Source: Spirochaetales bacterium (GTDB taxonomy: Bacteria > Spirochaetota > Spirochaetia > Sphaerochaetales > Sphaerochaetaceae). Taken from it: a stretch of DNA of 33,458 nucleotides. The notes under the pieces are model-generated. The model did no database searches, was not told the DNA's origin, and saw only the letters and a program-made list of their open reading frames with translations. The DNA is taken from assembly GCA_012514185.1 (NCBI GenBank), contig JAAZAT010000114.1:1-33458 (forward strand), written 5' to 3'. The translations under genes were made by a program, and so were the position numbers. Below, piece by piece: positions 16,461 to 32,636 of this stretch (position 1 is the first letter of the stretch; the number at the start of each line of letters is the position of its first letter).

Positions 16461-17888
16461 TCAGGGAAGGAAGACCTTCACTTTCTGCTCCAACCGAATC
16501 CTGTCACGACCTTCCTGCAGACTGGACAGCTCTCCGGTAGCCCATGCCTGGACAACCAAGTTACCCAAGGCAGTGGCTTCGACCGGACCGGCGTACACGG
16601 TAAGACCGGTCAAGTGTGCAGTCCACTGGTCAAGGATTTCATTCTTGCACCCTCCTCCGATGATGTGCAAGGAGGTGAACTTGGTCTTGAGGACCTCCTC
16701 CAAATCCTTGATCGCCTTCTGGTATGCACGGGCAAGACCACGGTAGATCGCCACCATGTATTCACCTTTTGAGGAGGGACGGACCAGGTTGTGTTCATCA
16801 CACCAGCCATTGATCCGGTCGATCATCAGGTTGTCGTAGGTATTCGGCTTGAGAAAGCGTCCGTCAGCCGGGTCGATATACCCCTGGTAGCCCTGGCAGA
16901 GCAGCGTCTGCTCATCGAGGTCCTTCCAGCTGATCGGCTTTCCTTCCTCGCGCTCCCAGTGCCTGACACACTCCTGCTGAATCCACATACCCATGATGTT
17001 TTTCAGAAACCGAACATTCCCGCTGGCTGCAATCTCATTGGTGAAGCCGCTCTCCAAGGCGGTTCGGTCGGTCAGGGGCGCGGCAAGCTCCACACCCAGC
17101 AGAGACCATGTCCCGCTGGAGATATAGAGCGGTGTTTCTCCCTTGGCAGCCGGAACCGCAGCCACCGCACTTGCCGTGTCGTGGGCGGCGCTGGCGATGA
17201 CCACCACGTTCTTGGGGGCGCCGACTTCGTGGGCCACATCCTCGGTCAAGGGACCAAGAATGGTGCCGCTGTCCACTATGTGGCCGAACAGCGATCGGTC
17301 GAACTGCATCTCATCGATGATGTCCCAGGCCCAATCGCCGGTCCTCGGATCATAGAGCTGGGTGGTCGAGGCATGGGTCCGTTCGTTCTTCATGACCGAG
17401 CACAACCAGTACGCCAGTAAATCGGGGACCGACAGATAGTGGCGGGCGGCTTTCAGTGCATCAGGCCTGTCCTGCTGCATGGCGGCAAGCTGATACAAGG
17501 TGTTGAACGGCTGGAAGGCAATGCCTGTCCGTTCATAGATGCGCATCTTGCCGCCGAGGCGGGAGGAAACCTTCTCGATCATGCCGTCGGTCCGGCTGTC
17601 ACGATAGTGATAGCACAGCGAAACCAGACCCCCGGCCTCATCGGTGAGGACATAGTCGACACCCCAGGTGTCGATGCCTATGGAGGTGATCTGGTTCGGG
17701 TACTCTGCAAAGGCTTTCTTCAACCCCGTCTTGATCTCACTGAACAGGCTTTGGAGGTTCCAATAGAACGATCCAAGAATCTGGTCATTGTGGGTCACAA
17801 ACCGGTGTACCACCTCAAACTCTTTCAGGTCCCCTACGAGGACCCGACCGTTTGAAGCTCCCAAGTCGATGGCAATATGCTTGTTCAT
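16461..17888 (-). CDS. rhaB: RhaB-like FGGY sugar kinase
   Basis: A 475-residue carbohydrate kinase of the FGGY family, closest in pattern to rhamnulokinase, which phosphorylates L-rhamnulose at C1 with ATP. Matching blocks are 'IAIDLGASNGR' (Asp8 in the phosphate-binding loop), 'GIDTWGVDYVLTDEAG', 'YRDSRTDGM', 'ERTGIAFQPFNTLYQL', the catalytic base Asp237 in 'SAAHDTASAVAAVPA', 'NIMGMWIQQECVRHW' and 'IIGGGCKNEILDQWTA...AGPVEATALGNL'. The ATG at 17888 follows AAGGAG and replaces a longer frame with no homology. It is the last gene of the operon, two bases after the SorE-like reductase. No rhamnose isomerase or rhamnulose-1-phosphate aldolase is in the window, so the ketose it phosphorylates may not be rhamnulose. 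Kinase family is firm, substrate open. Confidence 0.92.
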   Translation of the reverse strand: MNKHIAIDLGASNGRVLVGDLKEFEVVHRFVTHNDQILGSFYWNLQSLFSEIKTGLKKAFAEYPNQITSIGIDTWGVDYVLTDEAGGLVSLCYHYRDSRTDGMIEKVSSRLGGKMRIYERTGIAFQPFNTLYQLAAMQQDRPDALKAARHYLSVPDLLAYWLCSVMKNERTHASTTQLYDPRTGDWAWDIIDEMQFDRSLFGHIVDSGTILGPLTEDVAHEVGAPKNVVVIASAAHDTASAVAAVPAAKGETPLYISSGTWSLLGVELAAPLTDRTALESGFTNEIAASGNVRFLKNIMGMWIQQECVRHWEREEGKPISWKDLDEQTLLCQGYQGYIDPADGRFLKPNTYDNLMIDRINGWCDEHNLVRPSSKGEYMVAIYRGLARAYQKAIKDLEEVLKTKFTSLHIIGGGCKNEILDQWTAHLTGLTVYAGPVEATALGNLVVQAWATGELSSLQEGRDRIRLEQKVKVFLP

Positions 17889-17890
17889 CC

Positions 17891-19165
17891 TTACTCCTTG
17901 ATGCGTTTGGTGCAATGCTCGAGCAGATAAGCCTCAGCCTCAGCCGACCACAGGCCGTTGTGCTTATCTACCAACTTGGCAAGTTCGGCGAAGACCGGAT
18001 TGGTCTTGCCAAGCTCGGCAAGGTCTGAGAGCGCCACCAAGGGGAAGTCCAGATGCGTGTACATCATTTTCTTGCCGCCGGGGATGTTGGGCAGGTTGAT
18101 CACGGCCTCAGGCACTGCCGAAAGGCCTCCGATGTGGGTGACCATGGCCGAGGGATTGATCAAGCCCTTCTCCATCAGCATCAGCGATTCGCGCATATCG
18201 GCGGTGTTGCCGCCGCTGGTTCCTACGATGTGGGTGGAGGCATAGTGGACATTGTAAAAATTCAGGCTGGCTGTGAAATCGGTCTTGTTCGGACCTGCAA
18301 AGAAGTTCAAACACCCATCCTTGGCTAGAATGGCGTCAGCCTGCTCGACCAATGCTCTGACCGGTGCCATCACCATTACATCGTCATAGCCTTTCCCATC
18401 GGTAAGCTCCATCAGCTTGGCAACCGGGTCGCTGCACTCCTTGGTATTAAGATAGATCAGCTCCACCCCGTTCGCCTTGGCATCCTCGATGCTGTACAGG
18501 CTTGCCGCCCGCTTGAGCCTGGCAACATCGATATCGGTAACCACCAGCCGTCCGGGTTTGCGATAGGTGTTGTGCAGGGCATAGTCGATGGCTGAAAGCC
18601 CCATGGGACCGACACCGGCCAGGATGGCCAGATTGCCGCCTTCCACGATTCCCATCTGGTGGACATAGCTGCCGTTGGTTGTGTGGTACATCGCATGGAA
18701 GGTGCCCACGACGCAACTGACCGGCTCTGCAAGGCTTCCCAGGAAGAAGGCATCCCCGTCATAGGGAAGCAGGCAGTCGAGCTCCATCACCTGCTTGGGA
18801 ATGACCACATAGGTTGCATCACCGCCGATATAGGGGAAGGAGTAGCCCGGGGCATCCAGAGTACCCTTGTAATTGAGCGCAGGCTGGATGGAGAATCGGG
18901 AGCCCACCTTGAACTTGGACTGCCACTTCTCACCGACCTCTACGATCTCACCGCAGAACTCATGGCCGAGTATGATCGGGTTCTTATCGATATCCTTGGG
19001 AATTCTCTTATGATTGGGTCCCTGCTCGGCGGCCTTGTGGTCGCTCATGCAGATACTGTTGGTAATGACTTTTGCAAGGATCTCATCCTCTGCAATCGGG
19101 GGAAGTTCGAACTCTTCGAGCCTGAGATCATTGACTCCATAGAGTCGGATGGCACGTGTTTTCAT
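17891..19165 (-). CDS. sorE: SorE-like L-sorbose-1-phosphate reductase (zinc MDR dehydrogenase)
   Basis: A 424-residue medium-chain dehydrogenase. Family members of the SorE type reduce L-sorbose 1-phosphate at C2 to D-sorbitol 6-phosphate. Catalytic zinc ligands are Cys39 in 'SICMSDHKAA', His68-Glu69 in 'ILGHEFCG' and Glu147 in 'SLAEPVS'. The structural-zinc cysteine loop is missing, as in SorE. Strongly SorE-like stretches include 'YIGGDATYVVIPK', 'YHTTNGSYVHQMGIVEGGN', 'DGCLNFFAGPNK', 'NVHYASTHIVGTSGGNTADM' and 'MVTHIGGLSAVPEAVINLP'. The nucleotide loop is 'LAGVGPMGL'. AGGAG precedes the ATG. It lies nine bases after the SDR gene and two before the kinase. The natural substrate could be another ketose 1-phosphate, given the rhamnose-type transporter in the same regulon. 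Confidence 0.88.
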   Translation of the reverse strand: MKTRAIRLYGVNDLRLEEFELPPIAEDEILAKVITNSICMSDHKAAEQGPNHKRIPKDIDKNPIILGHEFCGEIVEVGEKWQSKFKVGSRFSIQPALNYKGTLDAPGYSFPYIGGDATYVVIPKQVMELDCLLPYDGDAFFLGSLAEPVSCVVGTFHAMYHTTNGSYVHQMGIVEGGNLAILAGVGPMGLSAIDYALHNTYRKPGRLVVTDIDVARLKRAASLYSIEDAKANGVELIYLNTKECSDPVAKLMELTDGKGYDDVMVMAPVRALVEQADAILAKDGCLNFFAGPNKTDFTASLNFYNVHYASTHIVGTSGGNTADMRESLMLMEKGLINPSAMVTHIGGLSAVPEAVINLPNIPGGKKMMYTHLDFPLVALSDLAELGKTNPVFAELAKLVDKHNGLWSAEAEAYLLEHCTKRIKE

Positions 19166-19174
19166 TGATGTCTC

Positions 19175-20335
19175 CTAATTCAGCATGACCTGGCCGCCGG
19201 TCACCGGGACCGCCTGGCCTGTCTCGTAGGTCTGTTCGACTATGTAGAGGATCGCCTTCATGACATCGTCGGTTCTGCAACCGCGATTCATCGGGACCTT
19301 CGATTCATAGAACCGTCTTACATCTGCAACCGTCTTGGCCCCGGGGACCTTGCCGGCATTGAGGTACTGTACAAACAAGCCCTTCTCGGGGTCCGACCAT
19401 AGCGGACCGTCAAGGAAATTGCCCGGGCAGACGGCATTCACCTTGATATTGTCCTCGACCAATTCCAGGGCAAAACTCTGCGTCAGGCCGATGGTGCCGA
19501 ATTTCGCCCCGGCATACGCTCCATTCTTGTTCGACCCTTCGAGGCCCGACTTGCTGGAGATGGCGATGATATCGGTATAGTAGGAAAGCGAAGGGATATT
19601 CTGCAAAGCCATCTGGGATGCAGCAAACTTGGTGCAGATGAAAAAGCCGGTGTAATCAACATTGGTGACAAACTGGAAGTCCTTCAAAGGCATCGATTTG
19701 ACCGACCCTGCCCGTAGCACCCCGGCATTGGAGATGAACAGGTCGAGGCCTCCGGTCTGCCTGGCCACCTCGTCCATCATCTGTGCAACCGATGCCTCAT
19801 CGGTCACATTCACGGTAATCGGCTTGGCTACCGTGATGCAGGCTTCATAGTTGAGCTCATCGGCGAGTTTCTTCGCTCCTTCTGCGTTCATGTCGGCAAT
19901 GTAGACAAAGGCTCCCAGCTCTACGAGCGATCGCACCATGCCCTCGCCGAATCCTTGGGCGCCACCGGTCACCAGGGCGATCTTGTCCCGCACCACATCA
20001 GCGCGGCTTAGGGAAGGCGCAAGGGTGGGAAGGGCGCTCACCCCCTCTGCACGGGCGGCTTCGTCATAGTTGGTACCCAGTCCATACTGCAGATCCAAGC
20101 CCTCGATTGCTACAACCGCAGGATAGAGTTGGCGCTCTTCTGTATAGGCTGAAAGCAAGCGCTTCCAACGAGAAGCGGTCTCTTCAACCGAAGAGCCTTC
20201 CTTCACCCCAGGCAGAAGCAACGAGGGTTGCCTGCTGGTTGTTTGGTGCACAAAGAGGCCTTTCTGACCATCAAAGGTCAATCCCCTGACTAGCGGTGCT
20301 ATTTCATTGGCCAGATTGGAAGTAAACGTCGTCAT
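19175..20335 (-). CDS. Short-chain dehydrogenase with N-terminal extension, sorbitol-6-phosphate dehydrogenase-like
   Basis: A 386-residue protein with an SDR domain from about residue 117. The nucleotide loop is TGGAQGFG (123-130), then 'NAG' (203-205), and the catalytic Ser261, Tyr274 and Lys278 ('SSKSG', 'YAGAK'). The C-terminal part 'CPGNFLDGPLW...VPMNRGCRTDDV...TGQAVPVTGGQVM' resembles sorbitol-6-phosphate 2-dehydrogenase (SrlD/SorD). The first ~115 residues are not SDR; 'YPAVVAIEGLDLQYGLGTNYDEAARAEGV' resembles the end of the class II aldolase domain in RhaEW-type aldolase-dehydrogenase fusions. No aldolase zinc ligands are visible, so this looks like a remnant or a related non-catalytic domain. 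CAGGAG precedes the ATG, which overlaps the PHP gene stop by 4 bases. Confidence 0.87.
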   Translation of the reverse strand: MTTFTSNLANEIAPLVRGLTFDGQKGLFVHQTTSRQPSLLLPGVKEGSSVEETASRWKRLLSAYTEERQLYPAVVAIEGLDLQYGLGTNYDEAARAEGVSALPTLAPSLSRADVVRDKIALVTGGAQGFGEGMVRSLVELGAFVYIADMNAEGAKKLADELNYEACITVAKPITVNVTDEASVAQMMDEVARQTGGLDLFISNAGVLRAGSVKSMPLKDFQFVTNVDYTGFFICTKFAASQMALQNIPSLSYYTDIIAISSKSGLEGSNKNGAYAGAKFGTIGLTQSFALELVEDNIKVNAVCPGNFLDGPLWSDPEKGLFVQYLNAGKVPGAKTVADVRRFYESKVPMNRGCRTDDVMKAILYIVEQTYETGQAVPVTGGQVMLN

Positions 20336-21660
20336 ACAGTCTCCTGGAATTTCTCGATGATCGCGTAGGGATTGGAACAATCCATCGACCGTCCCAACCG
20401 GGCGTAGTGCTCAAGCCTGGTTTGCAGGCTTTTTTCGGCAAAGGGGTTTTGCGGATGAAACAACCCCAGTTTTGCATCGACGCTGCTCAGTTTCTCATGG
20501 GCGACCAGAGCCCAGGCAGAGTCGACAAGATGGCGTGCAGCAGGCTCAAGCAGCTCGGGGCAATTCATGCTCTGGCGGCTGGAGTTGATGTCCACCCCGC
20601 TGATCTCCATCAAGCCCCGCTCTTTGGCAAGCGACTGCAGACGCAGCATCTGCTGTACGGTATTGCGCGGCGGCATATAGGTGACGGCAGGAAAGCCGAT
20701 ATCCACCAGCAAGTCCATCAGCTCGACAAGAAAGGAGTCCTCAAACTGCTCGGCCTTCTTGTCGCCGGTGACGCTCTCGGCGATATCCCCGAGGTAGGCA
20801 TAGGCGGCGATGGCTCCGATACTGTGGGAAAAATCGACCACCTTGCGTACATCCATGCACTCATCCCTGCCCGGTTGGATGAAGAAACGGGGAAGGAAGT
20901 TGCTCTTGTATATTCCGAGCAGGTCATAGGCATAGTGGGGATTGTTCTCGTCCAACAACAGGGATTGCAGTTTGGAAGAGAGGGAAAGACCGAGCGAGGA
21001 AGTCAGAAACCGGACCAGCTTCTCCCCTTTGCCGAACATCCGGATGGTCTGGTCGGCCATGGCATAGAGAATGTGCCGCTCGGTAACCGAGCCTCCCTCG
21101 CTGTGACGGGAGAGAGGCAGTACATCGCGCTCAAAGTCCAGGTCGAAGCCGTAGCGGCTCACCAGGGCCTGAAGCGCTTCAACCTGTGCCTTGTTGCGCT
21201 TGTTGCGGACTTCCTGCAGCGGCTTTAAAAAGGAAGCGACCGCAGGAATGTGTTGTTTTGCAACCCCATGGATGCACAGATAGACGATGCCTTCGCTGTC
21301 GGGGTTGTTGATCTTCCGGTTCGCAAGCGGTGTGTCGAGAAAGCTCACCCTCAGTTCAAAACCCACGGTTGTCGCGATGCCGATGTTCCGACCAGATTCC
21401 AGCATCTCGGCGGCTGCCCCGATGCTGTCATGGTCGATGCTTCCCACAATTCCCAGACCGGCCTTCCAGGCTGCATAGGCGGCCGCAGCAGGCTCATACG
21501 GACTGAAGGAATAGGTGGTATGCACATGGTTGTTCACCTCCTCGGTGACCTTGCGGCCAAGCGATCCGCTTTGTATCAGCGAACCAAGCTCGGCCGTGGC
21601 GGCCATGCGAGTCGAGACATCACGATCATTGACAGCACATTCAAGCTTCTGTATATCCAT
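20332..21660 (-). CDS. PHP-domain metal-dependent phosphoesterase-like protein
   Basis: A 442-residue protein whose first ~110 residues carry PHP-domain metal motifs: 'NNHVHTTYSFS' with His45 and His47, 'VGSIDHDSI' with Asp76-His77, and 'GFELRV' with Glu102. Further candidate ligands are His in 'LCIHGV', 'SRHSEGG' and 'VDFSHSIGAIAAYAYLGD', plus 'ISGVDINS' near the C-terminus, so the PHP barrel may span the whole chain. PHP proteins are trinuclear-metal phosphoesterases (histidinol-phosphatase, polymerase-associated and others). It overlaps the SDR start by 4 bases and lies nine bases after the E1 gene, so it belongs to the pathway. It could be a sugar-phosphate phosphatase or a hydrolase; I cannot assign a reaction. 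Confidence 0.8.
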   Translation of the reverse strand: MDIQKLECAVNDRDVSTRMAATAELGSLIQSGSLGRKVTEEVNNHVHTTYSFSPYEPAAAAYAAWKAGLGIVGSIDHDSIGAAAEMLESGRNIGIATTVGFELRVSFLDTPLANRKINNPDSEGIVYLCIHGVAKQHIPAVASFLKPLQEVRNKRNKAQVEALQALVSRYGFDLDFERDVLPLSRHSEGGSVTERHILYAMADQTIRMFGKGEKLVRFLTSSLGLSLSSKLQSLLLDENNPHYAYDLLGIYKSNFLPRFFIQPGRDECMDVRKVVDFSHSIGAIAAYAYLGDIAESVTGDKKAEQFEDSFLVELMDLLVDIGFPAVTYMPPRNTVQQMLRLQSLAKERGLMEISGVDINSSRQSMNCPELLEPAARHLVDSAWALVAHEKLSSVDAKLGLFHPQNPFAEKSLQTRLEHYARLGRSMDCSNPYAIIEKFQETV

Positions 21661-21669
21661 GGTTCTTCC

Positions 21670-24123
21670 TTATACTCCCTTCCGGCTCGTCCTGAAGAAC
21701 TCACCATCGGTGAAGTTGTGCTTGCTCGTATAACCGGGAAGCGGAAGAATCTGCTCATGGATGGCATCCAGGATGCTGGAAGGCTGGGCGAAGTAGTACT
21801 CTTCCATCTCAGCAGGCGGGGTGATCCAGTTCTTTGAACCTGCAACCACGATCGGGGCATCGAGGTAGTCGAAAGCGAGCCTTGAAAGGTTGCTTGCCAC
21901 CGTGTGAAGGTAGCTGCCGCGCTCGGCGCTGTCGGTTACCATGACGCAGCGACCGGTCTTCTTGACCGACTCGATGAGCATCTCGTACTTGAGCGGGTTG
22001 ATCCACCTCAGGTCGATGACCTCGGCTGAAAGACCAAGCTCTGCAAGCTTGTCGGCAGCAGCGATGGCGGTGTACAAGGCGGGTCCGAGGGCCACCAAGG
22101 TGACATCCTTTCCTTCACGCCTGATGGCGGGCTCCCCTTCGGGAATCTCGTAGTAGCCCTCGGGAACGCCTCCCTTTTCGAACATCTCGCCGATTCCGTA
22201 GAGCTTCTGGCTCTCGAAGAAGACCACCGGGTCGGTTCCACGCAGTGCGTAGTTGAGCATGCCCTTCACATCGTAGGGGGTCGCCGGGTACATCGCCTTC
22301 AGGCCCGGAACCGAGGCGACCATGCTGGTCCACTCCTGGGAGTGCTGGGCACCATACTTGTTGCCGACCGACACGCGAAGCACCAACGGCATCTTCAGCA
22401 CACCGGCACTCATGGCCTGCCACTTGGGCATCTGGTTGAAGACCTCGTCCCCTGCACAGCCGAGGAAGTCGCAGTACATCAACTCAACGACGGCCCGTCC
22501 GCCGGCCATTGCATAACCGACTCCGCTGCCGACGATCGCCGACTCGGCAATCGGGGAGTTGAAAAACCTTGACGGAGGAAGCAACTCGGTCAGACCGCGG
22601 TAGCAGGCAAACGCCCCACCCCAGTCACGGTGGTCCTCACCGTAGGCGATCATGGTCGGGTCGATGGAGAAGCGATGGGCCATGGCTTCGAATACCGCAT
22701 CACGGTACTGATACTGGCGGGCTGCAGGATACTCCTTTCCGTTCTCATCATACGCGTAGCGATTTCGCTTGGCGATCTGCTGCACCCTCGGATTCTCCTC
22801 AAGGCTCTGCAGCAGCACCGGCTTTGCATCGTCAAACTTCTCGACACTGCCGTTGGAGAACATCACCGACTCAATGAAGACTTCATCCACCATCGGGCTG
22901 AGCTTGGGATCGACGGTGATCTGCAGCGTCATTCTCATCTTCTCTTCAAGGAGCGCGTCCATGCCATCAAGGTCGGCTTGCTGGACTACCCCGTTTTCGA
23001 TCAGGTAATTGCCGTAGGCCACAATCGGATCCTGATTGCGGAACGCTTCCAGCTCCTCCTTGGTCCGGTAGGTCATCGCATCGCTGGGGCTGTGGCCGCT
23101 GTAGCGGTAGGTCAGCGTATCCAGGAAGGCGGGGCCTTCTCCCTTGAGCAGCAGTTCCTTCTTTCGGGCCGTAGCATCGGCTACAGCCAGCGGGTTGAAA
23201 CCATCGACCCGTTCGGTGTGCATGGAGTGCTCGTTGATGGCGGCTCCCACCCGGGCTGCCACCTTGTAGCCCATGGTCTCTCCGATGGGCTGGCCGCCCA
23301 TTGCATAGAGGTTGTCAAAGCAGTTGAGCATGAACGGAGGATAGCCGGGATTCTCCTCCCACAAGGTCTTGTACTGGTCCATGGAGGAGAGCACCAAGCC
23401 TTCGTAGACAGGACCGCGGGCGAGCGAGCCGTCACCGATGTTAGCGATGACGATACCCTTTTTGCGGTTGATCTTCTTATACAGGGCAGCTCCTACTGCA
23501 ATGGTGCAGGAGCCACCGACGATGGCGTTGTTGGGCATGCTGCCGAAGGGCTTGAAGAAGGTATGCATCGAGCCGCCAAGGCCTGCGTTGAAGCCCGTCT
23601 TCTTGGCATAGATCTCAGCCAAGGCGCCATAGAGCACAAAGTTCTCTGCAGTGTCGCGAACGTCCTTGCCGGGGAAGTGGGAGGCGATTACCTGGTAGGT
23701 CTGTCCGTTCATGAAGCCTTCCATGATGGCAAGCAGGTCCTTGTCCTCCATCTTGTAGATGGCGGACATGCTTTTGGCCAGAATCTCGCCATGGCTGCGG
23801 TGCGAGCCGAAAATCTGGTCCTCGGGCTCCAGCACCATCGCCTGGCCGACCGCTGCACTCTCCTGTCCTGCAGAGAGATGGGCGGGACCTTTGTGGTTGT
23901 AGCTGATCCCCTGATACACCCCTTCCTTCTTGATGGTGTCAAGCATCGTCTCAAACTTGCGGATGAGAAGCATGTCATAGTAGGCACGGACCAGGCGGTC
24001 CTTTCCGTACAGCTTGAGCTCCTTCTTGAAATCACTCTGGTACTGGTTGACCGGAATAGAAGGTGTCTTGATGATTTGTTTTTCCCTCAGCGTTGCGGGA
24101 TCAAACGGTAGTGTTTTGGACAT
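21670..24123 (-). CDS. Fused E1 alpha-beta subunit of a thiamine-dependent 2-oxoacid/acetoin-dehydrogenase-type complex
   Basis: An 817-residue single chain equal to E1 alpha (about 1-420) plus E1 beta (about 470-817) of the pyruvate/acetoin/branched-chain type. The alpha half has 'SHRSHGEILAK', 'GLGGSMHTF', 'NAIVGGSCTIAVGAAL' and the thiamine motif starting 'GDGSLARGPVYEGL' (230-). The motif's Asn is in 'NCFDNLYAMGG' (271), about ten residues later than usual because of an insert around 'DQYKTLWEENPGYPP'. The phosphorylation-loop region 'TYRYSGHSPSD' is present. The beta half has 'YGEDHRDWGG', 'FNSPIAESAIVGSGVGYAMAGGRAVVE' and 'YGAQHSQEW'. AAGGAG precedes the ATG. With E2 and E3 just upstream, a full complex making acyl-CoA is expected. 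Pyruvate, acetoin or a deoxyketose phosphate are possible substrates. Confidence 0.9.
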   Translation of the reverse strand: MSKTLPFDPATLREKQIIKTPSIPVNQYQSDFKKELKLYGKDRLVRAYYDMLLIRKFETMLDTIKKEGVYQGISYNHKGPAHLSAGQESAAVGQAMVLEPEDQIFGSHRSHGEILAKSMSAIYKMEDKDLLAIMEGFMNGQTYQVIASHFPGKDVRDTAENFVLYGALAEIYAKKTGFNAGLGGSMHTFFKPFGSMPNNAIVGGSCTIAVGAALYKKINRKKGIVIANIGDGSLARGPVYEGLVLSSMDQYKTLWEENPGYPPFMLNCFDNLYAMGGQPIGETMGYKVAARVGAAINEHSMHTERVDGFNPLAVADATARKKELLLKGEGPAFLDTLTYRYSGHSPSDAMTYRTKEELEAFRNQDPIVAYGNYLIENGVVQQADLDGMDALLEEKMRMTLQITVDPKLSPMVDEVFIESVMFSNGSVEKFDDAKPVLLQSLEENPRVQQIAKRNRYAYDENGKEYPAARQYQYRDAVFEAMAHRFSIDPTMIAYGEDHRDWGGAFACYRGLTELLPPSRFFNSPIAESAIVGSGVGYAMAGGRAVVELMYCDFLGCAGDEVFNQMPKWQAMSAGVLKMPLVLRVSVGNKYGAQHSQEWTSMVASVPGLKAMYPATPYDVKGMLNYALRGTDPVVFFESQKLYGIGEMFEKGGVPEGYYEIPEGEPAIRREGKDVTLVALGPALYTAIAAADKLAELGLSAEVIDLRWINPLKYEMLIESVKKTGRCVMVTDSAERGSYLHTVASNLSRLAFDYLDAPIVVAGSKNWITPPAEMEEYYFAQPSSILDAIHEQILPLPGYTSKHNFTDGEFFRTSRKGV

Positions 24124-25508: not shown

Positions 25509-26825
25509 CTACATGGCCAACAAGAGGTCGATCGAGGCGATATTGTCCATCAAGGCCTTGAGGAAGCGTGCCGCATCGGCACCGTCGACAGCTTGGTGGT
25601 CCATGGTCAGCGACAAGCCGATGTGCTCCACGAAGGCCACATCGCCGTCCTCATCCTCGATAGGCTTGAGGACTATGGTTCCAACTCCCAAAATGGCTAC
25701 CTCAGGCACATTCAGAACCGGGGTGAACGCCTCGATGCCGAACGATCCGACGTTGCTGACGGTGAATGTCGAGCCTGTCAGTTCATCAGGCTGGGCGGTA
25801 CCGGCTTTACACTTGCCGATGAGTTCTTTGGTTCCTTCACTGAGTTGCTTCAGGCTCAACTGTTCGCTGCTACGCAGTACCGGCACCAACAAGCCCTTGG
25901 CTGTATCGGTGGCCACTCCAAGATGGACATGGGAGAAGCGCAGGATCTTGTCACCAAGGAAGTGGGCGTTGAAGGCCGGGAACTGCACAAGCGTTCTGGA
26001 GACGGCAAACAGCACCAAGTCGTTGATGGTGATGCCTTGCAAACCGAGCTCAGGCTTGGATGCCTTGAATCCCGCCCTGAGACGCTTCAGAGCACGGGCG
26101 TCTGCGAAGGCGTGCAGGGAGAGCTGACAGGTCGAATGCATCGATTCCATCATCCTTCTTGCCGTTACCTTGCGAACTCCCTTCACCGCAATCTCAGTGA
26201 CTTCTTCGGCGACGGGCTCAACGACGGCAGCCGGCTCACCAGCCTTTGCCGCCAAATCGCTTGCGAGCACCCTGCCGCCTATACCGCTTCCGCTTGCAGG
26301 AGCTTGGATGCCCTGCTCAAGGGCTTGCTTTTTGGCAACCGGGGAAAGGGGCTGACCCTTGGCTGAAAGCACATCACGCTCGATGATTCTTCCCTTCGGG
26401 CCGGTAGGCTGAACGGCAGAGAGGGGGATACCCAAGGAATCTGAAAGATGCCTGGCCCTCGGGCTGGCACCTGTGGCTTGGCCTGCCGCAGCAACAGGGG
26501 ACTCAACAACGGCCGCAACCGATACATGCACCTGCTCTTCGATTTGTTGTTTCGGTACTTCAGCGGCCGAAGCCTCGACCTTCTCTCCAGCTTCGCCGAC
26601 AACGGCGATGGGGACCATGACCGGAACCTCGGCACCTTCTTCAAACAGGAGGGCAAGTACCACTCCTTCGGCGGTCGACTCAACGTCGATGGTGGATTTA
26701 TCGGTCTCGGCTGAACACAGCACATCACCGACGGCTACCTTGTCTCCGGGCTTCACCTTCCATTCCACGATGATGCAGGACTCGACCGAGTTTCCCTGCT
26801 TGGGCATCACAACCTGTTGCGCCAT
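25509..26825 (-). CDS. Dihydrolipoamide acyltransferase (E2) with two subunit-binding-like domains
   Basis: A 438-residue E2 core protein. Domain order: lipoyl domain (about 1-80) with Lys43 in 'ETDKSTID'; an alanine-rich linker; a peripheral-subunit-binding domain at about 121-153 ('SPRARHLSDSLGI...TGPKGRIIERDV'); a second, similar stretch at about 161-192 ('SPVAKKQALEQGI...GSGIGGRVLASDL'); and the catalytic acyltransferase domain (about 212-438) ending in 'LSLTMDHQAVDGADAARFL' with the DHxxxDG motif. It transfers the acyl group from thiamine/lipoyl to CoA and scaffolds E1 and E3. Two subunit-binding-type repeats in one E2 is less common than one. GAGGAG precedes the ATG. The gene lies 13 bases after the DeoR regulator. 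Confidence 0.93.
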   Translation of the reverse strand: MAQQVVMPKQGNSVESCIIVEWKVKPGDKVAVGDVLCSAETDKSTIDVESTAEGVVLALLFEEGAEVPVMVPIAVVGEAGEKVEASAAEVPKQQIEEQVHVSVAAVVESPVAAAGQATGASPRARHLSDSLGIPLSAVQPTGPKGRIIERDVLSAKGQPLSPVAKKQALEQGIQAPASGSGIGGRVLASDLAAKAGEPAAVVEPVAEEVTEIAVKGVRKVTARRMMESMHSTCQLSLHAFADARALKRLRAGFKASKPELGLQGITINDLVLFAVSRTLVQFPAFNAHFLGDKILRFSHVHLGVATDTAKGLLVPVLRSSEQLSLKQLSEGTKELIGKCKAGTAQPDELTGSTFTVSNVGSFGIEAFTPVLNVPEVAILGVGTIVLKPIEDEDGDVAFVEHIGLSLTMDHQAVDGADAARFLKALMDNIASIDLLLAM

Positions 26826-26838: not shown

Positions 26839-27594
26839 CTACTGTGCGATAATGACCTCAACCCCCTGCTCTTCGAGCTGGGCGATGAGGTCGGTAGGAA
26901 ATCCACTGTCTGTGACAATGGTATCAATCTCTGTTACCGGCATGATTCGTACGAATCCCCGATTGCCCACCTTCGACGAGTCGACGCAGAGCACCCTGCG
27001 GGTGGCCTGGGCGCACATGCGCTGGACAACCTGGGCATTCTCCACCAAGCTGGTGGTAAGCCCATGCTCCATTGTGAACCCGTCGGTGCCGAAAAAGGTG
27101 GTCTTTACATGGTAATCTTCAATTTGGCTGATGGCAGCCGGACCTACGAGGGCCTCTGCCTGGCTTCGGTACTCACCACCGACAAGGGTGATGAGCAATT
27201 GGGCATTCGCCCTGGCATACGGCAACAGGAGGGTGGAATTGGTAACCACCTTGACATTGCGCTTGCCGAAGAGGTAGCGGGGGATCAAGGAGCAGGTGGA
27301 ACCGTTGGTGATCATGATGCAGTCGTTGTCCTTGACCAAGGTGGCTGCAGTTTTGGCGATCAACTCTTTCTGGGTGTTGTTCGAACCATCGCGGAAGGCA
27401 GCCTGCGGCGAGGAGGCGGCCACCACTCTTCCATGGGAGCGGACGACCAGCCCTTTGGCGTCGAGGTCCCTCAGGTCGCCACGGATGGTAACGGCAGAAA
27501 CACCCAACTCTTGGCTGAGCCGGGTGACCGGGTACTCCTCTCCACTTTTCAGCAGCTGGAGAATTTTTTCCTCACGGGGGGAAAGTCCTAACAT
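26839..27594 (-). CDS. DeoR-family transcriptional regulator
   Basis: A 251-residue sugar-phosphate-sensing regulator. The N-terminal winged helix ('LSPREEKILQLLKSGEEYPVTRLSQELGVSAVTIRGDLRDLDAKGLVVRSHG', broken here only for description) is the DeoR signature. The C-terminal domain has 'MITNGSTCSLIPRYL', 'VVTNSTLLL', 'LVGGEYR' and 'DYHVKTTFFGTDGFT', typical of DeoR effector domains that bind phosphorylated sugars. The ATG at 27594 is chosen because CAGGAG lies eight bases upstream; the longer TTG-started frame begins inside that site. It is the first gene of the eight-gene operon. A direct repeat CGAAAG-N5-CGAAAG at its own promoter, repeated upstream of the rhamnose-type transporter, is the likely operator. 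Confidence 0.94.
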   Translation of the reverse strand: MLGLSPREEKILQLLKSGEEYPVTRLSQELGVSAVTIRGDLRDLDAKGLVVRSHGRVVAASSPQAAFRDGSNNTQKELIAKTAATLVKDNDCIMITNGSTCSLIPRYLFGKRNVKVVTNSTLLLPYARANAQLLITLVGGEYRSQAEALVGPAAISQIEDYHVKTTFFGTDGFTMEHGLTTSLVENAQVVQRMCAQATRRVLCVDSSKVGNRGFVRIMPVTEIDTIVTDSGFPTDLIAQLEEQGVEVIIAQ

Positions 27595-27619
27595 CCAGTT
27601 CGCTCCTGCTTTCAATTTA

Positions 27620-27636
27620 CTTTCGTAACGCTTTCG
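27620..27636 (-). promoter_or_regulatory. Predicted DeoR operator, CGAAAGCGTTACGAAAG
   Basis: Read on the minus strand this is a direct repeat of CGAAAG with an 11-bp period, starting directly after the -10 box of the DeoR operon and covering the expected transcription start. A 15/17 identical copy lies at 32851-32867. Repression by occlusion of the start site is the natural reading. Confidence 0.7.
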
Positions 27637-27665
27637 ATTCTATTATGACTGAGCGAATAAATCAA
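27637..27665 (-). promoter_or_regulatory. Promoter of the DeoR/E2/E3/E1 operon
   Basis: On the minus strand TTGATT (27665-27660, 4/6) and TAGAAT (27642-27637, 5/6) are 17 bp apart in the 92-bp gap between rhaM and the DeoR gene. Transcription would begin near 27630. No terminator is visible between rhaM and this promoter, so read-through from the transporter operon is also possible. Confidence 0.62.
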
Positions 27666-27686
27666 GCAGAAATGAAAGGAAAATCC

Positions 27687-27998
27687 TCAATCCATGTGAA
27701 AGACTTCTTCCAATGGTATGGAGATCGGCGATTTGTCCGGGTTCGTCTCCATCAAATCGGACATATAAGCCCACCACTTCTGGACGATGGGATTTGCACC
27801 CAAGTCCTGGGAGCCTGTTTCGCCCTGCACACGCTGGAAGGCGAAGAGTTTTCCCGTCTCGCGTTCAAGGAAAATCGTATAGTCATACACTCCGCTTTCA
27901 CTGAGCAAAGCCTTCAACTGCGGCCAAATCTCATTGTGACGCTTCTGGTATTCGGCCTCACATCCTTTCTTCAACTGCATGACAAATGCATTGCGCAT
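27687..27998 (-). CDS. rhaM: L-rhamnose mutarotase
   Basis: A 103-residue enzyme that interconverts alpha and beta anomers of L-rhamnose (and some related sugars) so that the isomerase or kinase sees the right form. It matches the RhaM/RhaU family along its whole length: 'NAFVMQLKKGCEAEYQKRHNEIWPQL' with the active-site His, 'GVYDYTIFLERETGKLFAFQRV', 'VQKWWAYMSDLMETNPDKSP' with the paired Trp, and the C-terminal 'LEEVFHMD'. AGGAGG precedes the ATG. It is the last gene of the rhamnose-type transporter operon, nine bases after the second permease, as in rhizobial rhaSTPQU clusters. No rhamnose isomerase accompanies it. Confidence 0.94.
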   Translation of the reverse strand: MRNAFVMQLKKGCEAEYQKRHNEIWPQLKALLSESGVYDYTIFLERETGKLFAFQRVQGETGSQDLGANPIVQKWWAYMSDLMETNPDKSPISIPLEEVFHMD

Positions 27999-28007
27999 GA
28001 AATCCTC

Positions 28008-29045
28008 CTAGTGTTGTGCCTGCAATCTGAGCTTTCGGTTTGCCTTGTACAGGTCCAGCAATCTGGGAAGCAGGACTGCGATGATCAGCAGGCTTCCGAT
28101 GACGATGGTCATCAGCGTACCGCTGAACTTGAGCAGGCCCATGCCGAATTTCAGATAGCCGACGAGCAGGGAGCCGATGAACACCCCGAAGACAGTGCCC
28201 TTTCCTCCGGTGATCGAAACTCCACCGAGAACCACCAAGGTGATGATTTCCAAATCCCAGCCGGTTGCAATGTTTGAGCGGACCGAAAGGATGCGGCTTG
28301 CCAGCAGCATGGCCGTCAGGCCGCAGAAGAATCCGGTGATGGTAAAGTTGATGATCCTGGTGAGTTTGACGTTCACACCGCTGAACCGGGCGGCCTCAGC
28401 GCTGTTTCCGATGGCATACAGCCTTCTGCCGTACGTGGTCTTATGCAGGATGAAGGCAAAAAGGAGCATCAGGGCAAGGTAGAGCACGAACTCGTAGGGA
28501 ATGATGGTGTTGGGGATGAACTCCTGGCCGAAGACCCCGAAACCCTCGGGGAAACTGGTGCGGGCCTGGTCGCCCAAGAGTCCGATCGAGATGCCCCGAT
28601 AGATGGACTGGGTTGCAAGGGTGACGGCTATGGCCGGCATGTTCAGACCGGTTATCATCACCCCGTTGAACAGCCCGGCAAGGGTGCCTACCAGGAGGGA
28701 GATCAACAGCAGGGAGGGGATCGATGCCCCACCCTGGGCTGCGTTTCCGACTGCATAGGCGCACAAGGCTATGATCGAAGCGATCGATATGTCGATATCA
28801 CCGCACATGATGATGAAAATCATCGGCAGGGCCATGATCGCCTTCTCGCTGAACTGGAAGGTCGCGTTCATCAGGTTGAACCAATCCAGGAAATAGGGAG
28901 TCCGATTGGTGAAGAACACAAACATCAAGGTGAAGATGATGACCAAGATCACTTCCCACTTGGTAAAGAACTCGATAAGCCGATTTTTGATTGACATCTC
29001 GTTGATGAGCCGGCTTTTTGCAATAAAATCTTGTTTCTCAGCCAT
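28008..29045 (-). CDS. rhaQ: Rhamnose-type ABC transporter permease 2
   Basis: A 345-residue CUT2 permease with many hydrophobic helices. Family blocks are 'MIFIIMCGDIDISIASIIAL', 'GLFNGVMITGLNMPAIAVTLATQSIYRG', 'YAIGNSAEAARFSGVNV' and 'EIITLVVLGGVSITGGKGT'. The N-terminal ~30 residues are charged and cytoplasmic. AGGAGGGGG precedes the ATG. It follows permease 1 by three bases and pairs with it, as RhaP and RhaQ do in rhizobia. Gene order (binding protein, ATPase, two permeases, mutarotase) supports the rhamnose assignment; which permease equals P or Q is a guess. Confidence 0.9.
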   Translation of the reverse strand: MAEKQDFIAKSRLINEMSIKNRLIEFFTKWEVILVIIFTLMFVFFTNRTPYFLDWFNLMNATFQFSEKAIMALPMIFIIMCGDIDISIASIIALCAYAVGNAAQGGASIPSLLLISLLVGTLAGLFNGVMITGLNMPAIAVTLATQSIYRGISIGLLGDQARTSFPEGFGVFGQEFIPNTIIPYEFVLYLALMLLFAFILHKTTYGRRLYAIGNSAEAARFSGVNVKLTRIINFTITGFFCGLTAMLLASRILSVRSNIATGWDLEIITLVVLGGVSITGGKGTVFGVFIGSLLVGYLKFGMGLLKFSGTLMTIVIGSLLIIAVLLPRLLDLYKANRKLRLQAQH

Positions 29046-29048
29046 AGC

Positions 29049-30050
29049 CTACCCCCTCCTCTGTGCCAGTAGTTTTGCACTCTTGCGTTGGTCGGACAGG
29101 GTATTCAGAGCCAAGGCGATCAGGATGATCAAACCTTGGACCAGAGTCTGCCAGAAAACCGACAAATACACGACCGGCAGTGCATTGGTGACAACACCCA
29201 AAAAGAGGGTTCCCAGCACAACGCCGATGATCCCGCCGGCTCCACCGGAGAAGTTCACACCCCCCAGCACACAGGCGGCAACCGCCTGCATCTCAAAGCC
29301 GGTGGCCATCTCGTTGACCGCCGAGGCATACCGGGCGGTCCACAAGGCACCGGCAAGGCCGCAGAGCGTCCCACTGATCAAAAATACGACGACCCTGACA
29401 CGGTTCTCATTCACTCCCACGAACTTTGCTGCCGTGGGGTTGCCCCCGATGGCGTAGACTTCGCGTCCGGTCCGAGTGAAACGGCTGAAATAATAGAAGA
29501 CTGCTATGACAACAAAGGCGATCCAGAGAAGGTATGAGATGCCCAAAAATGTAGTACGGGGAAATCCGATGTATGAAGGGGTCATCTCATGAGCGGTGAC
29601 CCAGGTGCCCTTGCTGAGCACGAAGGTAAGACCGCGATAGATGTTCACGGTCCCCAAGGTGGTGATGATGGGCGGTATTTTCCCATACGCCACCAACACT
29701 CCGTTGAGCAAGCCCATCAAGAGCCCGATGAGCATCCCGACAAGCAGCAGGACCAGCGGGGATACCGATGGATGCGATTCGTTGATCATTCCGCAGGCCA
29801 TGCCGGTGAAGGCGATGATCGATCCCACCGAGAGATCGATGCCGTTGGAAAGAATGACATAGAACATACCGATTGCAACGATGGAAAGAATCGCCATATC
29901 GTTGAGAATCCTGTTGATGTTCTCGGCGGAAAGGAATTGGGGTGAGCGGATGGTGATGGGGACCAAAAGGACCACCAGCAAGAGCATCAGGGTCAACTCC
30001 CTGCGCTCAAGAGCCTTTTTCAGCAGTGATGAGGGAGCATGTTCAGGCAT
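29049..30050 (-). CDS. rhaP: Rhamnose-type ABC transporter permease 1
   Basis: A 333-residue CUT2 permease. It shows 'AIGMFYVILSNGIDLSVGSIIAFTGMACG', 'GLLNGVLVAYGKIPPIITTLGTVNIYRGL', 'YAIGGNPTAAKFVGVNE' and 'MQAVAACVLGGVNFSGGAGG'. The ATG at 30050 is chosen because AGGAGG precedes it and the upstream in-frame extension is arginine-rich sequence belonging to the ATPase gene in another frame. The start overlaps the ATPase stop by 8 bases. It differs clearly from the second permease, so the channel is probably a heterodimer. Confidence 0.91.
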   Translation of the reverse strand: MPEHAPSSLLKKALERRELTLMLLLVVLLVPITIRSPQFLSAENINRILNDMAILSIVAIGMFYVILSNGIDLSVGSIIAFTGMACGMINESHPSVSPLVLLLVGMLIGLLMGLLNGVLVAYGKIPPIITTLGTVNIYRGLTFVLSKGTWVTAHEMTPSYIGFPRTTFLGISYLLWIAFVVIAVFYYFSRFTRTGREVYAIGGNPTAAKFVGVNENRVRVVVFLISGTLCGLAGALWTARYASAVNEMATGFEMQAVAACVLGGVNFSGGAGGIIGVVLGTLFLGVVTNALPVVYLSVFWQTLVQGLIILIALALNTLSDQRKSAKLLAQRRG

Positions 30051-31560
30051 GTGAGGCCTCCTGGGCAACCGTTGCAATCGCATAGCGCATGACCGTCTCC
30101 GCCGTGCATGTCCGGGCATCGAGAATGGCGGTCTGGCAGCCTTCATGCATGACCAGGATCCGGTCGCTCATCCCCATGATCTCCGGCAGTTCGCTGGAAA
30201 TGAGAATGACAGCCACACCTTTGGCGGCCATGTCGCAGATGAACTGGTGCACCGCTGCCTTGGTGGCGACATCGATACCTTTGGTCGGTTCGTCGAGAAT
30301 AAGAATCTTGGGTTTTGTTCCGATCCACTTGGCCAGAACGACTTTCTGCTGGTTGCCACCCGAGAGGGTCTCTGCATCGACATGGTAGCCGGCTGCCTTG
30401 ATCTCCATCTGCTTTCCATGTTCCAAAACGTAGGACTTCTCCTCCTTGGAGCGGGTAATGAGGCCCTTGAATGACAACAGCTTGAGAACCGGCAGGGAGA
30501 TGTTGTGGGTCAAGCTCATTTTCAGCACCAGGCCCTGTTTCTGGCGGTCCTCGGGAACCAAGGCGATGCCCTTGCGCATGCTCTCTTTGGCACCCTTGGG
30601 CATAAACGCCTTGCCTTCGAGATACATGGTGCCTTCACTGGCCTTGTCGATGCCGAATATGGTACGGACAACCTCGCTGCGGCCAGCCCCCACCAAGCCG
30701 AACACCCCCAGGATTTCCCCCTCATGGAGTGTAAAGGAGATGTGCTTGAATGCACCGAGCTGGCTCAGCTTCTCGACTTTGAGAATCTCTTTGCCCCATA
30801 CAGGTGCATGCTCGGGATAGAGCTGGTCGATCGAGCGGCCGATCATCATGTTGATGATCTGGTCCTCGGTGCTCTCAGCAACCTTCCCCTCCCCTATATA
30901 TTGTCCATCACGGTAGACGGTGTAGTAATCACAAATACTGAAAATCTCATCGAATTTATGAGAAATGAACAAAATGGCTTTTCCGCTCTCCTTCAGCGAG
31001 CGGACAATGCGGAAGAGGTCTTCGACCTCCCGTCCGGTGAGTGCGCTGGTAGGCTCGTCCATGATGACCAGCTTGGCATCGAGGGAGAGTGCCTTGGTGA
31101 TCTCAACCATGTGCCGCTTGGCAACGCTGAGGTTCTTGACCAAGGTGTCGGGGTCGATATCCAGCTGCATCCGTCCAAGCAGTGCCTTGGTCTGTTCGGT
31201 CATCGCCTTCCAGTCAAGCTTCTTGGTCTTGGGATTGCGCAGATGGTGCCCCATGAAAATATTCTCGGTGACACTGAGCTCGGGAAACATCGAGGCTTCC
31301 TGATGGATGGCAACAATGCCTGCCTGCTGGGCCTCGATGGCATTCTTGAAGAAAATCTCCTTGCCTTCAAGCACGATGTTCCCATGGGTGGGTATGTACA
31401 CCCCGGTCAGGATTTTCACCAAGGTTGACTTTCCAGCTCCGTTTTCCCCGATCAAGGCATGCACTTCGCCCGAGCGCAGTGTCAGCTTGACATCATCCAG
31501 GGCACGGATACCGGGAAATATCTTGGTTAGATTGGTAACTTCCAACAATGCGTCCGGCAT
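30043..31560 (-). CDS. rhaT: Rhamnose-type ABC transporter ATPase, two ABC domains
   Basis: A 505-residue CUT2 ATPase. The first domain has Walker A GENGAGKST (residues 38-46), 'HQEASMFPELSVTENIFMG', a non-canonical signature 'LSVAKRHMVEI' and Walker B 'LVIMDEPTSALTG'. The second has a degenerate Walker A 'GLVGAGRSEV', a full 'LSGGNQQKVVLA' and 'ILILDEPTKGID'. 'PEDRQKQGLVLKMS' is typical of the RbsA group. AAGGAGG precedes the ATG. It is separated from the binding-protein gene by a 68-base gap containing a strong hairpin. Confidence 0.94.
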   Translation of the reverse strand: MPDALLEVTNLTKIFPGIRALDDVKLTLRSGEVHALIGENGAGKSTLVKILTGVYIPTHGNIVLEGKEIFFKNAIEAQQAGIVAIHQEASMFPELSVTENIFMGHHLRNPKTKKLDWKAMTEQTKALLGRMQLDIDPDTLVKNLSVAKRHMVEITKALSLDAKLVIMDEPTSALTGREVEDLFRIVRSLKESGKAILFISHKFDEIFSICDYYTVYRDGQYIGEGKVAESTEDQIINMMIGRSIDQLYPEHAPVWGKEILKVEKLSQLGAFKHISFTLHEGEILGVFGLVGAGRSEVVRTIFGIDKASEGTMYLEGKAFMPKGAKESMRKGIALVPEDRQKQGLVLKMSLTHNISLPVLKLLSFKGLITRSKEEKSYVLEHGKQMEIKAAGYHVDAETLSGGNQQKVVLAKWIGTKPKILILDEPTKGIDVATKAAVHQFICDMAAKGVAVILISSELPEIMGMSDRILVMHEGCQTAILDARTCTAETVMRYAIATVAQEASHA

Positions 31561-31587
31561 TGTTCCTCCTTATGCAAGCAAAACAGA

Positions 31588-31615
31588 CGGCTCCCGCCGA
31601 AAGCGGCAGGAGCCG
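31588..31615 (-). other. Intercistronic hairpin after the rhamnose-type binding protein gene
   Basis: A 12-bp GC-rich stem (31588-31599 with 31604-31615) with a 4-base loop; one pair is G-U in the minus-strand RNA and a mismatch on the other strand. TCTGTTTTGC follows, a poor T-run, so at most partial termination. Placement and build mirror the hairpin at 15052-15079 in the other sugar transporter operon. Confidence 0.72.
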
Positions 31616-31628
31616 AAGATGATGATTC

Positions 31629-32636
31629 TTAGAAAGTGAACTGTTCTACGTTGTCCTTGTTGAATACGTACGGATAACCCATGTAGATGATTCCATCTTT
31701 CTCAACCTTCATGGAATCCATGCGGCCTGCGGGAATGGACTCGCCGGCAGTTCCCTTGACGGTGCCGTCAATGAGGCCGTTCAGGATGTAGGTGGAGGTG
31801 TAGCCGAGGTCGATCGGATTCCACAGAGCCATCTGGCGGCAGGTGCCGTCGAGGATGTAACCCTTCATTTCGGAGGGCAGTCCAAGACCGGTGACTTCCA
31901 CGATACCGGCCTTGCCGGCATCCTTGACAGCCTGTGCGGTTGCAAGCAGACCAACAGTGGTCGGGCAAATGATCGCCTTGAGGTTGGGGTACTTCTGCAT
32001 CAAGGAGACAGCTTCACGATAGCTCTTGTCCGGGGCGTCGTCGCCATAGACGACTTCCACGAGCTTCATGTTTGCATACTTGGCATCCTTGATCTCTTCC
32101 TTCATCCAATTAATCCAGAGGTTCTGGTTGGTAGCCTGGGCGGAGGCGGAAAGAACAGCGACATCACCCTTGGAGCCGGTAAGTTCGGCTGCAAGCTGAA
32201 TCTGCTGGCGGCCGATGAGCTCGGCATTGCTGGGAAGCAGGTCGACGATGCGTCCGCCTACGTTGATGCCGGAGTCAAAGCTGATGACCTTGATGCCGGC
32301 TGCCATGGCCTTCTTGGTGACGGGAATCAGGGCATCGGCGTCGTTTGCGCTGATGGCGATTCCGGCGACTCTCTGTGCAATGAGGGTCTCGATGATTTCA
32401 ATCTGGCCTTCAGCAGTTGCCTGGGGAGGACCCATGTAGGTGGTCTTGATCCCGCCAAGCTCGGCAGCAGCTTCCTGGCTGCCTTTGAACACTGCATCAA
32501 AGAAAGCATTTCCCATGCTCTTTACGAGAATGACAATTTCCTTCTCCGATTTTACTGCCTGTTCTTTGGCTCCCTGGGCGAAAAGACCAGTGACGACCAA
32601 GCTGGCGATGAGTACAAACAACAACGCTTTCTTCAT
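31629..32636 (-). CDS. rhaS: Rhamnose-type ABC transporter substrate-binding protein
   Basis: A 335-residue exported sugar-binding protein. The signal peptide MKKALLFVLIASLVVTGLFAQG ends in the same FAQG pattern as the other binding protein here. The mature part has 'MGNAFFDAVFKGSQEAAAELGG', 'GPPQATAEGQIEIIETLIAQRVAGIAIS', 'KVISFDSGI', 'LSASAQATNQNLWINWMKEE' and 'GTCRQMALWNPIDLGYTSTYILNG'. This pattern is shared by rhamnose-binding RhaS and AI-2-binding LsrB. The mutarotase in the same operon, and the absence of any lsr metabolism gene, favour a rhamnose-type sugar. AAGGAG precedes the ATG. It is the first gene of the operon. Confidence 0.92.
   Translation of the reverse strand: MKKALLFVLIASLVVTGLFAQGAKEQAVKSEKEIVILVKSMGNAFFDAVFKGSQEAAAELGGIKTTYMGPPQATAEGQIEIIETLIAQRVAGIAISANDADALIPVTKKAMAAGIKVISFDSGINVGGRIVDLLPSNAELIGRQQIQLAAELTGSKGDVAVLSASAQATNQNLWINWMKEEIKDAKYANMKLVEVVYGDDAPDKSYREAVSLMQKYPNLKAIICPTTVGLLATAQAVKDAGKAGIVEVTGLGLPSEMKGYILDGTCRQMALWNPIDLGYTSTYILNGLIDGTVKGTAGESIPAGRMDSMKVEKDGIIYMGYPYVFNKDNVEQFTF

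Follow-up and report, generated by a model that had tools for sequence, protein, structure and literature searches.

The stretch of DNA analysed here, hereafter the window, comprises positions 1 to 33,458 (33,458 nucleotides) of contig JAAZAT010000114.1 from a Spirochaetales bacterium (assembly GCA_012514185.1) and is C86:1-33458 of a genome that counts 315 contigs and is ~ 86% complete. Thirteen genes, rhaS, rhaT, rhaP, rhaQ, rhaM, deoR, E2, E3, E1, PHP, SDR, sorE and rhaB, occupy positions 16461-32636, all on the (-) strand and, from rhaS to rhaB, either overlapping or spaced by 2 to 71 bases. The first five encode a rhamnose-type importer and a mutarotase, while the block from deoR to rhaB, hereafter the module, looks like an undescribed breakdown of deoxysugars to acetyl-CoA and a four-carbon sugar phosphate, as opposed to the textbook split giving lactaldehyde.

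31629..32636, (-): rhaS, rhamnose-type binding protein of an ABC importer (TIGR02637, 406.5 bits, above the cut-off of 342.25)
30043..31560, (-): rhaT, importer ATPase (ABC_tran domains; place conserved in relatives)
29049..30146, (-): rhaP, importer permease (PF02653)
28008..29045, (-): rhaQ, importer permease (PF02653)
27687..27998, (-): rhaM, L-rhamnose mutarotase (TIGR02625, 117.6 bits, above the cut-off of 99.6)
26839..27615, (-): DeoR-family regulator of the module (PF00455 and PF08220; found by tblastn at 36 of 80 module loci)
25509..26825, (-): E2 acyltransferase with lipoyl domain (PF00364, PF02817, PF00198; motifs)
24147..25499, (-): E3 dihydrolipoyl dehydrogenase (TIGR01350, 486.7 bits, above the cut-off of 408.8)
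21670..24123, (-): thiamine diphosphate E1 with alpha and beta parts fused, the proposed cleavage enzyme for a 1-deoxyketose 6-phosphate (domain and profile matches, motifs, own clade)
20332..21660, (-): PHP-fold protein, candidate tetrose phosphate isomerase or phosphatase (predicted model, fold matches, altered ligand pattern)
19175..20335, (-): SrlD/SorD-like short-chain dehydrogenase/reductase (SDR) with an extra N-terminal domain, proposed 6-deoxyhexitol-phosphate dehydrogenase (SrlD homology; Ser-Tyr-Lys)
17891..19165, (-): SorE-like reductase, proposed 6-deoxyketose-1-phosphate reductase (49.8-51.3% identical to annotated SorE)
16461..17888, (-): RhaB-like FGGY kinase (best model TIGR02627, 433 bits, below the cut-off)

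Proteins of the module

Curated cut-offs are passed by RhaS, RhaM and E3, while the kinase, SDR, E1 and E2 remain below the equivalog cut-offs although these are their best models. The active-site motifs of E1, E2, E3 and SDR are complete. These profile matches and identities bear out the gene assignments of the initial annotation, which had described a kinase, a SorE-like reductase, an SDR, a PHP protein and an E1-E2-E3 complex adjoining a rhamnose-type importer and mutarotase.

The E1 (alpha and beta), a lipoyl E2 and the E3 are encoded together in the window, as in the acetoin dehydrogenase system. Against the best pyruvate dehydrogenase models of NCBIfam, E1 scores 229.5 (cut-off 454) and 183.2 (cut-off 393.85), and E2 scores 249.4 (cut-off 722) and 246.4 (cut-off 445), so that none of the cut-offs is passed. 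In a tree with 13 further E1s, drawn from same-genus and same-class genomes, for which the program warned of long branches, the module E1 falls together with two alphaproteobacterial E1s carried on plasmids (50-51% identity over 97-100% of the length) on one side of a branch with 100/100 support, apart from those 13. The Rhizobium pRL8 cousin (L145:10830-16484) has as neighbours a lipoyl-domain protein, a PfkB-type kinase, a psicose-epimerase-like and a FucU-like protein, importers, and in the same cluster an AcoC-type protein that matches the acetoin dehydrogenase E2 model best (152.9 bits, cut-off 307); next to the Pleomorphomonas cousin (L146:10366-15579) lie a lipoyl protein, a XylB that exceeds its cut-off and an AcoC-type protein with 202.1 bits (cut-off 307). 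These plasmid sugar clusters are possibly a second pathway of the same kind, and one may speculate that a XylB of the Pleomorphomonas type could supply 1-deoxy-D-xylulose 5-phosphate.

The predicted model of the PHP protein has a pLDDT of 94.3 and, by its fold matches, shows the PHP fold of metal phosphoesterases, as in PHP proteins of the TrpH/RNase AM type. Residues H45, H47, H77, E102 and D357 are invariant in 55 of 55 sequences and H196 is found in 54, along with many invariant Arg, Lys and Asp residues. F52 (53/55, Tyr in the other two) occupies the position of the Asp in the HxHxxxSD motif of 3e0f, and N359 stands where we take the usual last His to be; hence the usual set of metal ligands is incomplete, with at least one ligand lost. 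It is, from its sequence, a candidate tetrose phosphate isomerase but might equally be a phosphatase; no isomerase was found among the high-Z VIA-align rows, an absence that proves nothing.

The SDR scores 225.6 bits with the SrlD model against 132.1 bits with the RhaEW model, and its Ser-Tyr-Lys residues are invariant in 46 of 46 sequences. Its N-terminal domain of ~ 115 residues (19994-20335, (-)) is confidently folded in the predicted model and has no NCBIfam match, though no fold search was made with this domain by itself; the idea that it derives from the aldolase half of a fusion like RhaEW was a guess by eye and was not retained. The SorE-like reductase is also 52% identical to E. coli YggP, encoded beside cmtBA (L104:8001-9278), and YggP may thus be a ketose- or hexitol-phosphate oxidoreductase.

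Distribution and association with L-rhamnose and L-fucose genes

A profile scan of genome contigs with the PHP alignment returned at least 567 relatives, of which the best 80 loci were kept; the top named matches among those listed belong to Sphaerochaeta (Spirochaetota). Scored by tblastn at these 80 loci, many of which end at contig ends, the SDR is present in 68, E1 in 60, SorE in 54, E2 in 48, E3 in 44, the RhaB-like kinase in 38 and DeoR in 36. The typical order, DeoR-E2-(E3)-E1-PHP-SDR-SorE, is found in Spirochaetota, Kiritimatiellota/Verrucomicrobiota and Atribacterota. The kinase belongs to one or another of several FGGY types and either follows SorE or sits between it and the SDR. FucI-like genes occur within 5 of the 80 loci and rhaA within 3. 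Furthermore, a transketolase family lies near the module in 7 of 88 loci from two phyla (the single member tested exceeds its cut-off) and an HAD-phosphatase-like family in 5 of 88 (the single member tested has a beta-phosphoglucomutase-family hydrolase as best model, below the cut-off). In G019 the neighbours include proteins which, by eye, we take to be GH105 and GH4 enzymes.

Among 247 genomes drawn from the phylum, PHP is found in 10, rhaA in 18 and fucI in 39. The presence of PHP goes together with rhaA (7/10 genomes with PHP against 11/237 without, p 3e-7), with fucI (9/10 against 30/237, p 2e-7) and with either of them (10/10 against 36/237, p 2e-8), and the last association persists when counted by genus (9/9 against 15/117, p 8e-8), these tests taking no account of ancestry above genus level. 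Moreover, a rhaA match was obtained in 39 of 50 genomes reached via the PHP loci (50 of 59 listed), 36 of them strong. The block is very probably a deoxyhexose module.

The best evidence is a pattern of gene replacement within one genus. The cluster of G269, a genome without PHP, comprises FucI and, adjoining it, a class II aldolase (PF00596), together with a kinase, an AraC-type gene, a LacI regulator, FucU, an ABC importer and an alcohol dehydrogenase that by eye resembles FucO. G300, of the same genus, retains FucI and FucU along with LacI (56% identity to G269) and the importer (78-82%), but its fucU-fucI stretch is without the alcohol dehydrogenase, kinase and aldolase present at the G269 counterpart, and a complete module including its own FGGY kinase adjoins FucU. 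No PF00596 protein was found in the G300 genome, which is 99% complete, whereas at least one occurs in each of the other 36 fucI genomes searched, and also in G118 and G000. The chemical idea of the initial annotation, a keto-group transfer on a rhamnose-type sugar followed by acetyl-CoA-forming cleavage, is partly borne out and fits better than the sequence alone could show, as the module also accompanies L-fucose genes and in G300 adjoins fucU-fucI where G269 has its fucO-like gene, kinase and aldolase, while the reactions themselves are still deduced from the genes.

G160 and G263 have no PF00596 gene near fucI and carry 2 and 1, respectively, elsewhere. How far fucI lies from the closest class II aldolase was dropped as a clean test, given a p of 0.056 and the fact that 10 of the 15 genomes without PHP that have an aldolase near fucI belong to one genus. 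In G263, a second SorE (61% identical) was seen one gene from fucU, in a stretch with fucI and LacI that lies apart from the module (L137:11033-12280).

In the window's own genome, the final 127 bases of the window (other strand) are identical to the end of contig C177. In the direction of the window, this contig carries fucI and then fucU, an AraC-type regulator, rhaA, the class II aldolase-like gene Ald2 and the start of an SBF permease, with fucI and the AraC-type regulator on the opposite strand. This rhaA exceeds its cut-off (NF002203, 616.7 bits against 572) and fucI matches PF07881 (E 1.3e-81). In the relative G005, whose E1 is 97% identical, AraC, rhaA, Ald2, SBF permease, rhaSTPQ, rhaM and the block to rhaB follow each other in the same order on one contig. 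The isomerase step, which the initial annotation had left unaccounted for, can hence be assigned to genes on C177, and of the contrary evidence that it had named, a normal rhaA/rhaD route regulated by this DeoR protein, half is present, as rhaA and the aldolase-like Ald2. Further along the window, beyond rhaB, come the genes of a second importer and of a LacI regulator, which resemble the set between fucU and fucI in G300. The remaining features are as follows.

32901..33449, (-): SBF-family permease, 3' part (start on C177 after rhaA and Ald2; 127-base end overlap)
15089..16231 (open frame), (-): second sugar importer, binding protein (63% identical to the G300 protein)
13509..15011, (-): second importer, ATPase (65% identical to the G300 protein)
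12493..13485, (-): second importer, permease (70% identical to the G300 protein)
11393..12478, (-): LacI-family regulator (40% identical to the G300 regulator)
7354-8046, (-): fructose-6-phosphate aldolase/transaldolase-like gene (NF009299, 273.4 bits, above the cut-off of 214)

A member of this last family is also found near the module in 4 of 88 loci, and the protein may process sugar phosphates coming from the module.

A proposed route and its rivals

With L-sorbose 1-phosphate, the known action of SorE is a reduction at C2 and that of SorD an oxidation at C5. From the observed gene content, homology, conservation, link with rhaA and fucI and replacement in one genus, we infer the reactions of steps three to six of a route in which RhaA or FucI would produce L-rhamnulose or L-fuculose (step one) and the FGGY kinase would phosphorylate C1 (step two). 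SorE would then reduce C2 to give a 6-deoxyhexitol 1-phosphate, and the SrlD-like SDR would oxidise C5 to give a 1-deoxy-2-ketose 6-phosphate (CH3-CO-CHOH-...). In step five, the E1-E2-E3 complex with thiamine diphosphate would attack the methyl ketone, release a tetrose 4-phosphate and transfer acetyl to CoA while NADH is formed. The tetrose phosphate would finally enter the pentose phosphate pathway, for which it would require an isomerase, perhaps PHP. That SorE, SDR and E1-E2-E3 form such a 6-deoxyhexose route to acetyl-CoA and tetrose phosphate, a lower half serving L-rhamnose and L-fucose without lactaldehyde, is the reading which we moderately favour. It is supported by the conservation of the block in several phyla, the homology of SorE and SDR, the link with rhaA and fucI (fucI and fucU lying close to rhaA in the window's own genome too), the contrast of G300 with G269, the transketolase neighbours, and an E1 clade whose alphaproteobacterial members stand in sugar gene clusters with an AcoC-type protein.

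Rhamnulose 1-phosphate and fuculose 1-phosphate share the 6-deoxy end required by the proposed cleavage, and their sole difference is C4, a centre lost in that cleavage. Worked out by hand, a SorE facing its substrate as on sorbose would lead from rhamnulose to 1-deoxy-D-sorbose 6-phosphate and from fuculose to 1-deoxy-D-tagatose 6-phosphate; as these differ only at C3 (the old C4), which becomes the aldehyde carbon after cleavage, both would yield D-threose 4-phosphate. With the opposite facing, both sugars would end, by the same hand derivation, as L-erythrose 4-phosphate. Since rhamnulose and fuculose would give the same tetrose, one complex could serve both sugars.

Several observations weigh against this route. 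The PHP protein has no explained part in it. E1 is missing from 20 of the 80 PHP loci and, of 13 of these genomes searched, 6 have a strong E1 elsewhere and one has a 40% match, while the other 6 (G044, G056, G046, G047, G050 and G055) have PHP and no E1 at E 1e-120; SorE is present in four of the six (G044, G056, G046 and G050). These are either incomplete bins, as some indeed are, or a variant with another cleavage enzyme. An aldolase lies within 10 kb of fucI in 1 of 9 genomes with PHP against 15 of 30 without (p 0.056), a weak contrast, and the sole case with PHP is the window's own genome, by virtue of Ald2. L050 shows fusions of a mannitol-1-phosphate 5-dehydrogenase-like domain with PHP (L050:8804-11326) and of an Ald2-like domain with the SDR (L050:11323-13293), which fit hexitol-phosphate chemistry but may also point to a wider substrate range. 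Ald2 adjoins rhaA in the window's genome and in many module genomes and retains the aldolase motifs in 9 of 9 aligned sequences, so that an aldolase route may run alongside the module for rhamnose. Ald2 scores far below every bifunctional aldolase cut-off and is only distantly RhaE-like; in G032 it lies 12 kb from rhaA, and in G042 and G232 no Ald2 is near rhaA. A role for it as a C4 epimerase, leading to erythrose 4-phosphate, was set aside given the aldolase-type Glu in 9 of 9 aligned sequences, at which position AraD has Asp. In Pontiella sulfatireligans the operon rhaA-rhaM-Ald2-kinase (L115) is separate from the module (L064). This strain is reported to form some 1,2-propanediol from fucose, and a figure legend mentions fucA and fucO; the products given for sister strain F1 are acetate, H2, ethanol and lactate, and fucK was identified in neither strain (PMC7356697).

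The complex could instead be a dehydrogenase of pyruvate or another 2-oxo acid, acting on an end product of the ordinary aldolase route while SorE and SDR have a side job. Indeed, E1 and E2 find their best NCBIfam models among pyruvate dehydrogenase parts and Ald2 offers a possible aldolase route, but both proteins fall below the cut-offs given above, E1 sits in a clade of its own, and the tight partnership of SorE, SDR and PHP as well as the module of G300, a genome without class II aldolase, would be left unexplained; we hold this reading to be unlikely, albeit the least so of the alternatives. The same G300 genome, in which fucI and the module occur without any class II aldolase that could form lactaldehyde, argues against a main aldolase route with the module removing a compound derived from lactaldehyde, for instance acetol or methylglyoxal. 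The position of Ald2 beside rhaA and the L050 fusion of SDR and Ald2 domains, as in RhaEW-type proteins, would suit such a role, but the SDR scores higher with the SrlD model than with RhaEW, and this appears to be the least probable explanation.

It is also rather improbable that the module acts on ordinary (non-6-deoxy) ketose or hexitol phosphates, turning a ketose 6-phosphate into a glycolyl-type acyl-CoA and a tetrose phosphate: SorE and SrlD act on L-sorbose 1-phosphate and glucitol 6-phosphate and L050 has its mannitol-1-phosphate 5-dehydrogenase-like domain, yet the statistical link is with rhaA and fucI, and the adjoining importers and mutarotases are of the rhamnose/fucose type. Just as improbable is the proposed route with an early dephosphorylation by PHP or the HAD protein and cleavage of the free 1-deoxyketose. 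The PHP fold is that of metal phosphoesterases and the HAD-phosphatase-like family recurs near the module; this would, however, waste the ATP spent by the kinase, the PHP ligand pattern is altered, and the transketolase neighbours suggest a phosphorylated tetrose. Autoinducer-2 breakdown was set aside, as the binding protein reaches 406 bits with RhaS and 156 with LsrB.

Returning to the acetyl-CoA route, we see as evenly balanced the broader proposal of a third kind of 6-deoxyhexose catabolism in several phyla, in which L-fucose and L-rhamnose would pass via 1-deoxyketose 6-phosphates to acetyl-CoA and a common tetrose 4-phosphate with neither lactaldehyde nor 1,2-propanediol on the way, the fused E1 would act on the methyl ketone of a sugar phosphate and form acetyl-CoA from it directly, and the alphaproteobacterial cousins would do likewise with other 1-deoxy sugars. 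To our knowledge, no characterised complex forms acetyl-CoA straight from such a ketone.

Significance and relation to known systems

L-fucose and L-rhamnose make up a major share of the sugar in mucin, algal fucoidan, pectin and plant gums, and their anaerobic use is usually assumed to proceed via lactaldehyde to 1,2-propanediol and propionate. If the proposed route is true, the predicted products change for many uncultured Spirochaetota, Kiritimatiellota and Atribacterota, and functions are gained for the PHP, SorE-like and fused E1 families, which now bear generic names only. No description of an acetyl-CoA-forming deoxysugar route was found in the open-licence PubMed Central papers. Alternative rhamnose enzymes are catalogued in PMC3870299, whose main text does not contain the terms 'acetyl-CoA', 'pyruvate dehydrogenase' or 'Spirochaet'. 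In another paper, rhamnose use by two termite spirochaetes is termed non-conventional owing to a RhaK-type kinase (PMC13067680). The acetyl-CoA route could fill this reported gap as well as that of fucK in the two Pontiella strains (PMC13067680, PMC7356697).

With the phosphorylative L-rhamnose and L-fucose pathway (RhaA-RhaB-RhaD or RhaE; FucI-FucK-FucA) the module system has the importer, mutarotase, isomerase and kinase in common, but it is proposed to work without an aldolase split, the ketose phosphate being rebuilt by SorE and SDR and then cleaved with thiamine and lipoate. Like the L-sorbose pathway of Klebsiella, whose SorE and SorD have the function described above, the module pairs a SorE-like reductase with an SrlD/SorD-like SDR; it differs in its FGGY kinase, its proposed 6-deoxy substrate and its downstream cleavage complex, and the importers beside the module in the window are of ABC type where the sorbose pathway has a phosphotransferase system (PTS).

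The acetoin dehydrogenase system shares the thiamine E1, lipoyl E2 and E3 and converts a methyl ketone next to a carbinol into acetyl-CoA and an aldehyde, as is proposed for the module. In contrast, the fused E1 of the module belongs to its own clade and would act on a sugar phosphate, and the E2 of the window has a catalytic domain, an AcoC-type protein being found only with the alphaproteobacterial cousins. Autoinducer-2 breakdown (LsrK-LsrG-LsrF) has a related importer and an FGGY kinase, and it too cleaves a phosphorylated ketone to acetyl-CoA, but LsrF is a thiolase-like lyase and not a thiamine-lipoate complex, and the best model of the window's binding protein is RhaS and not LsrB.

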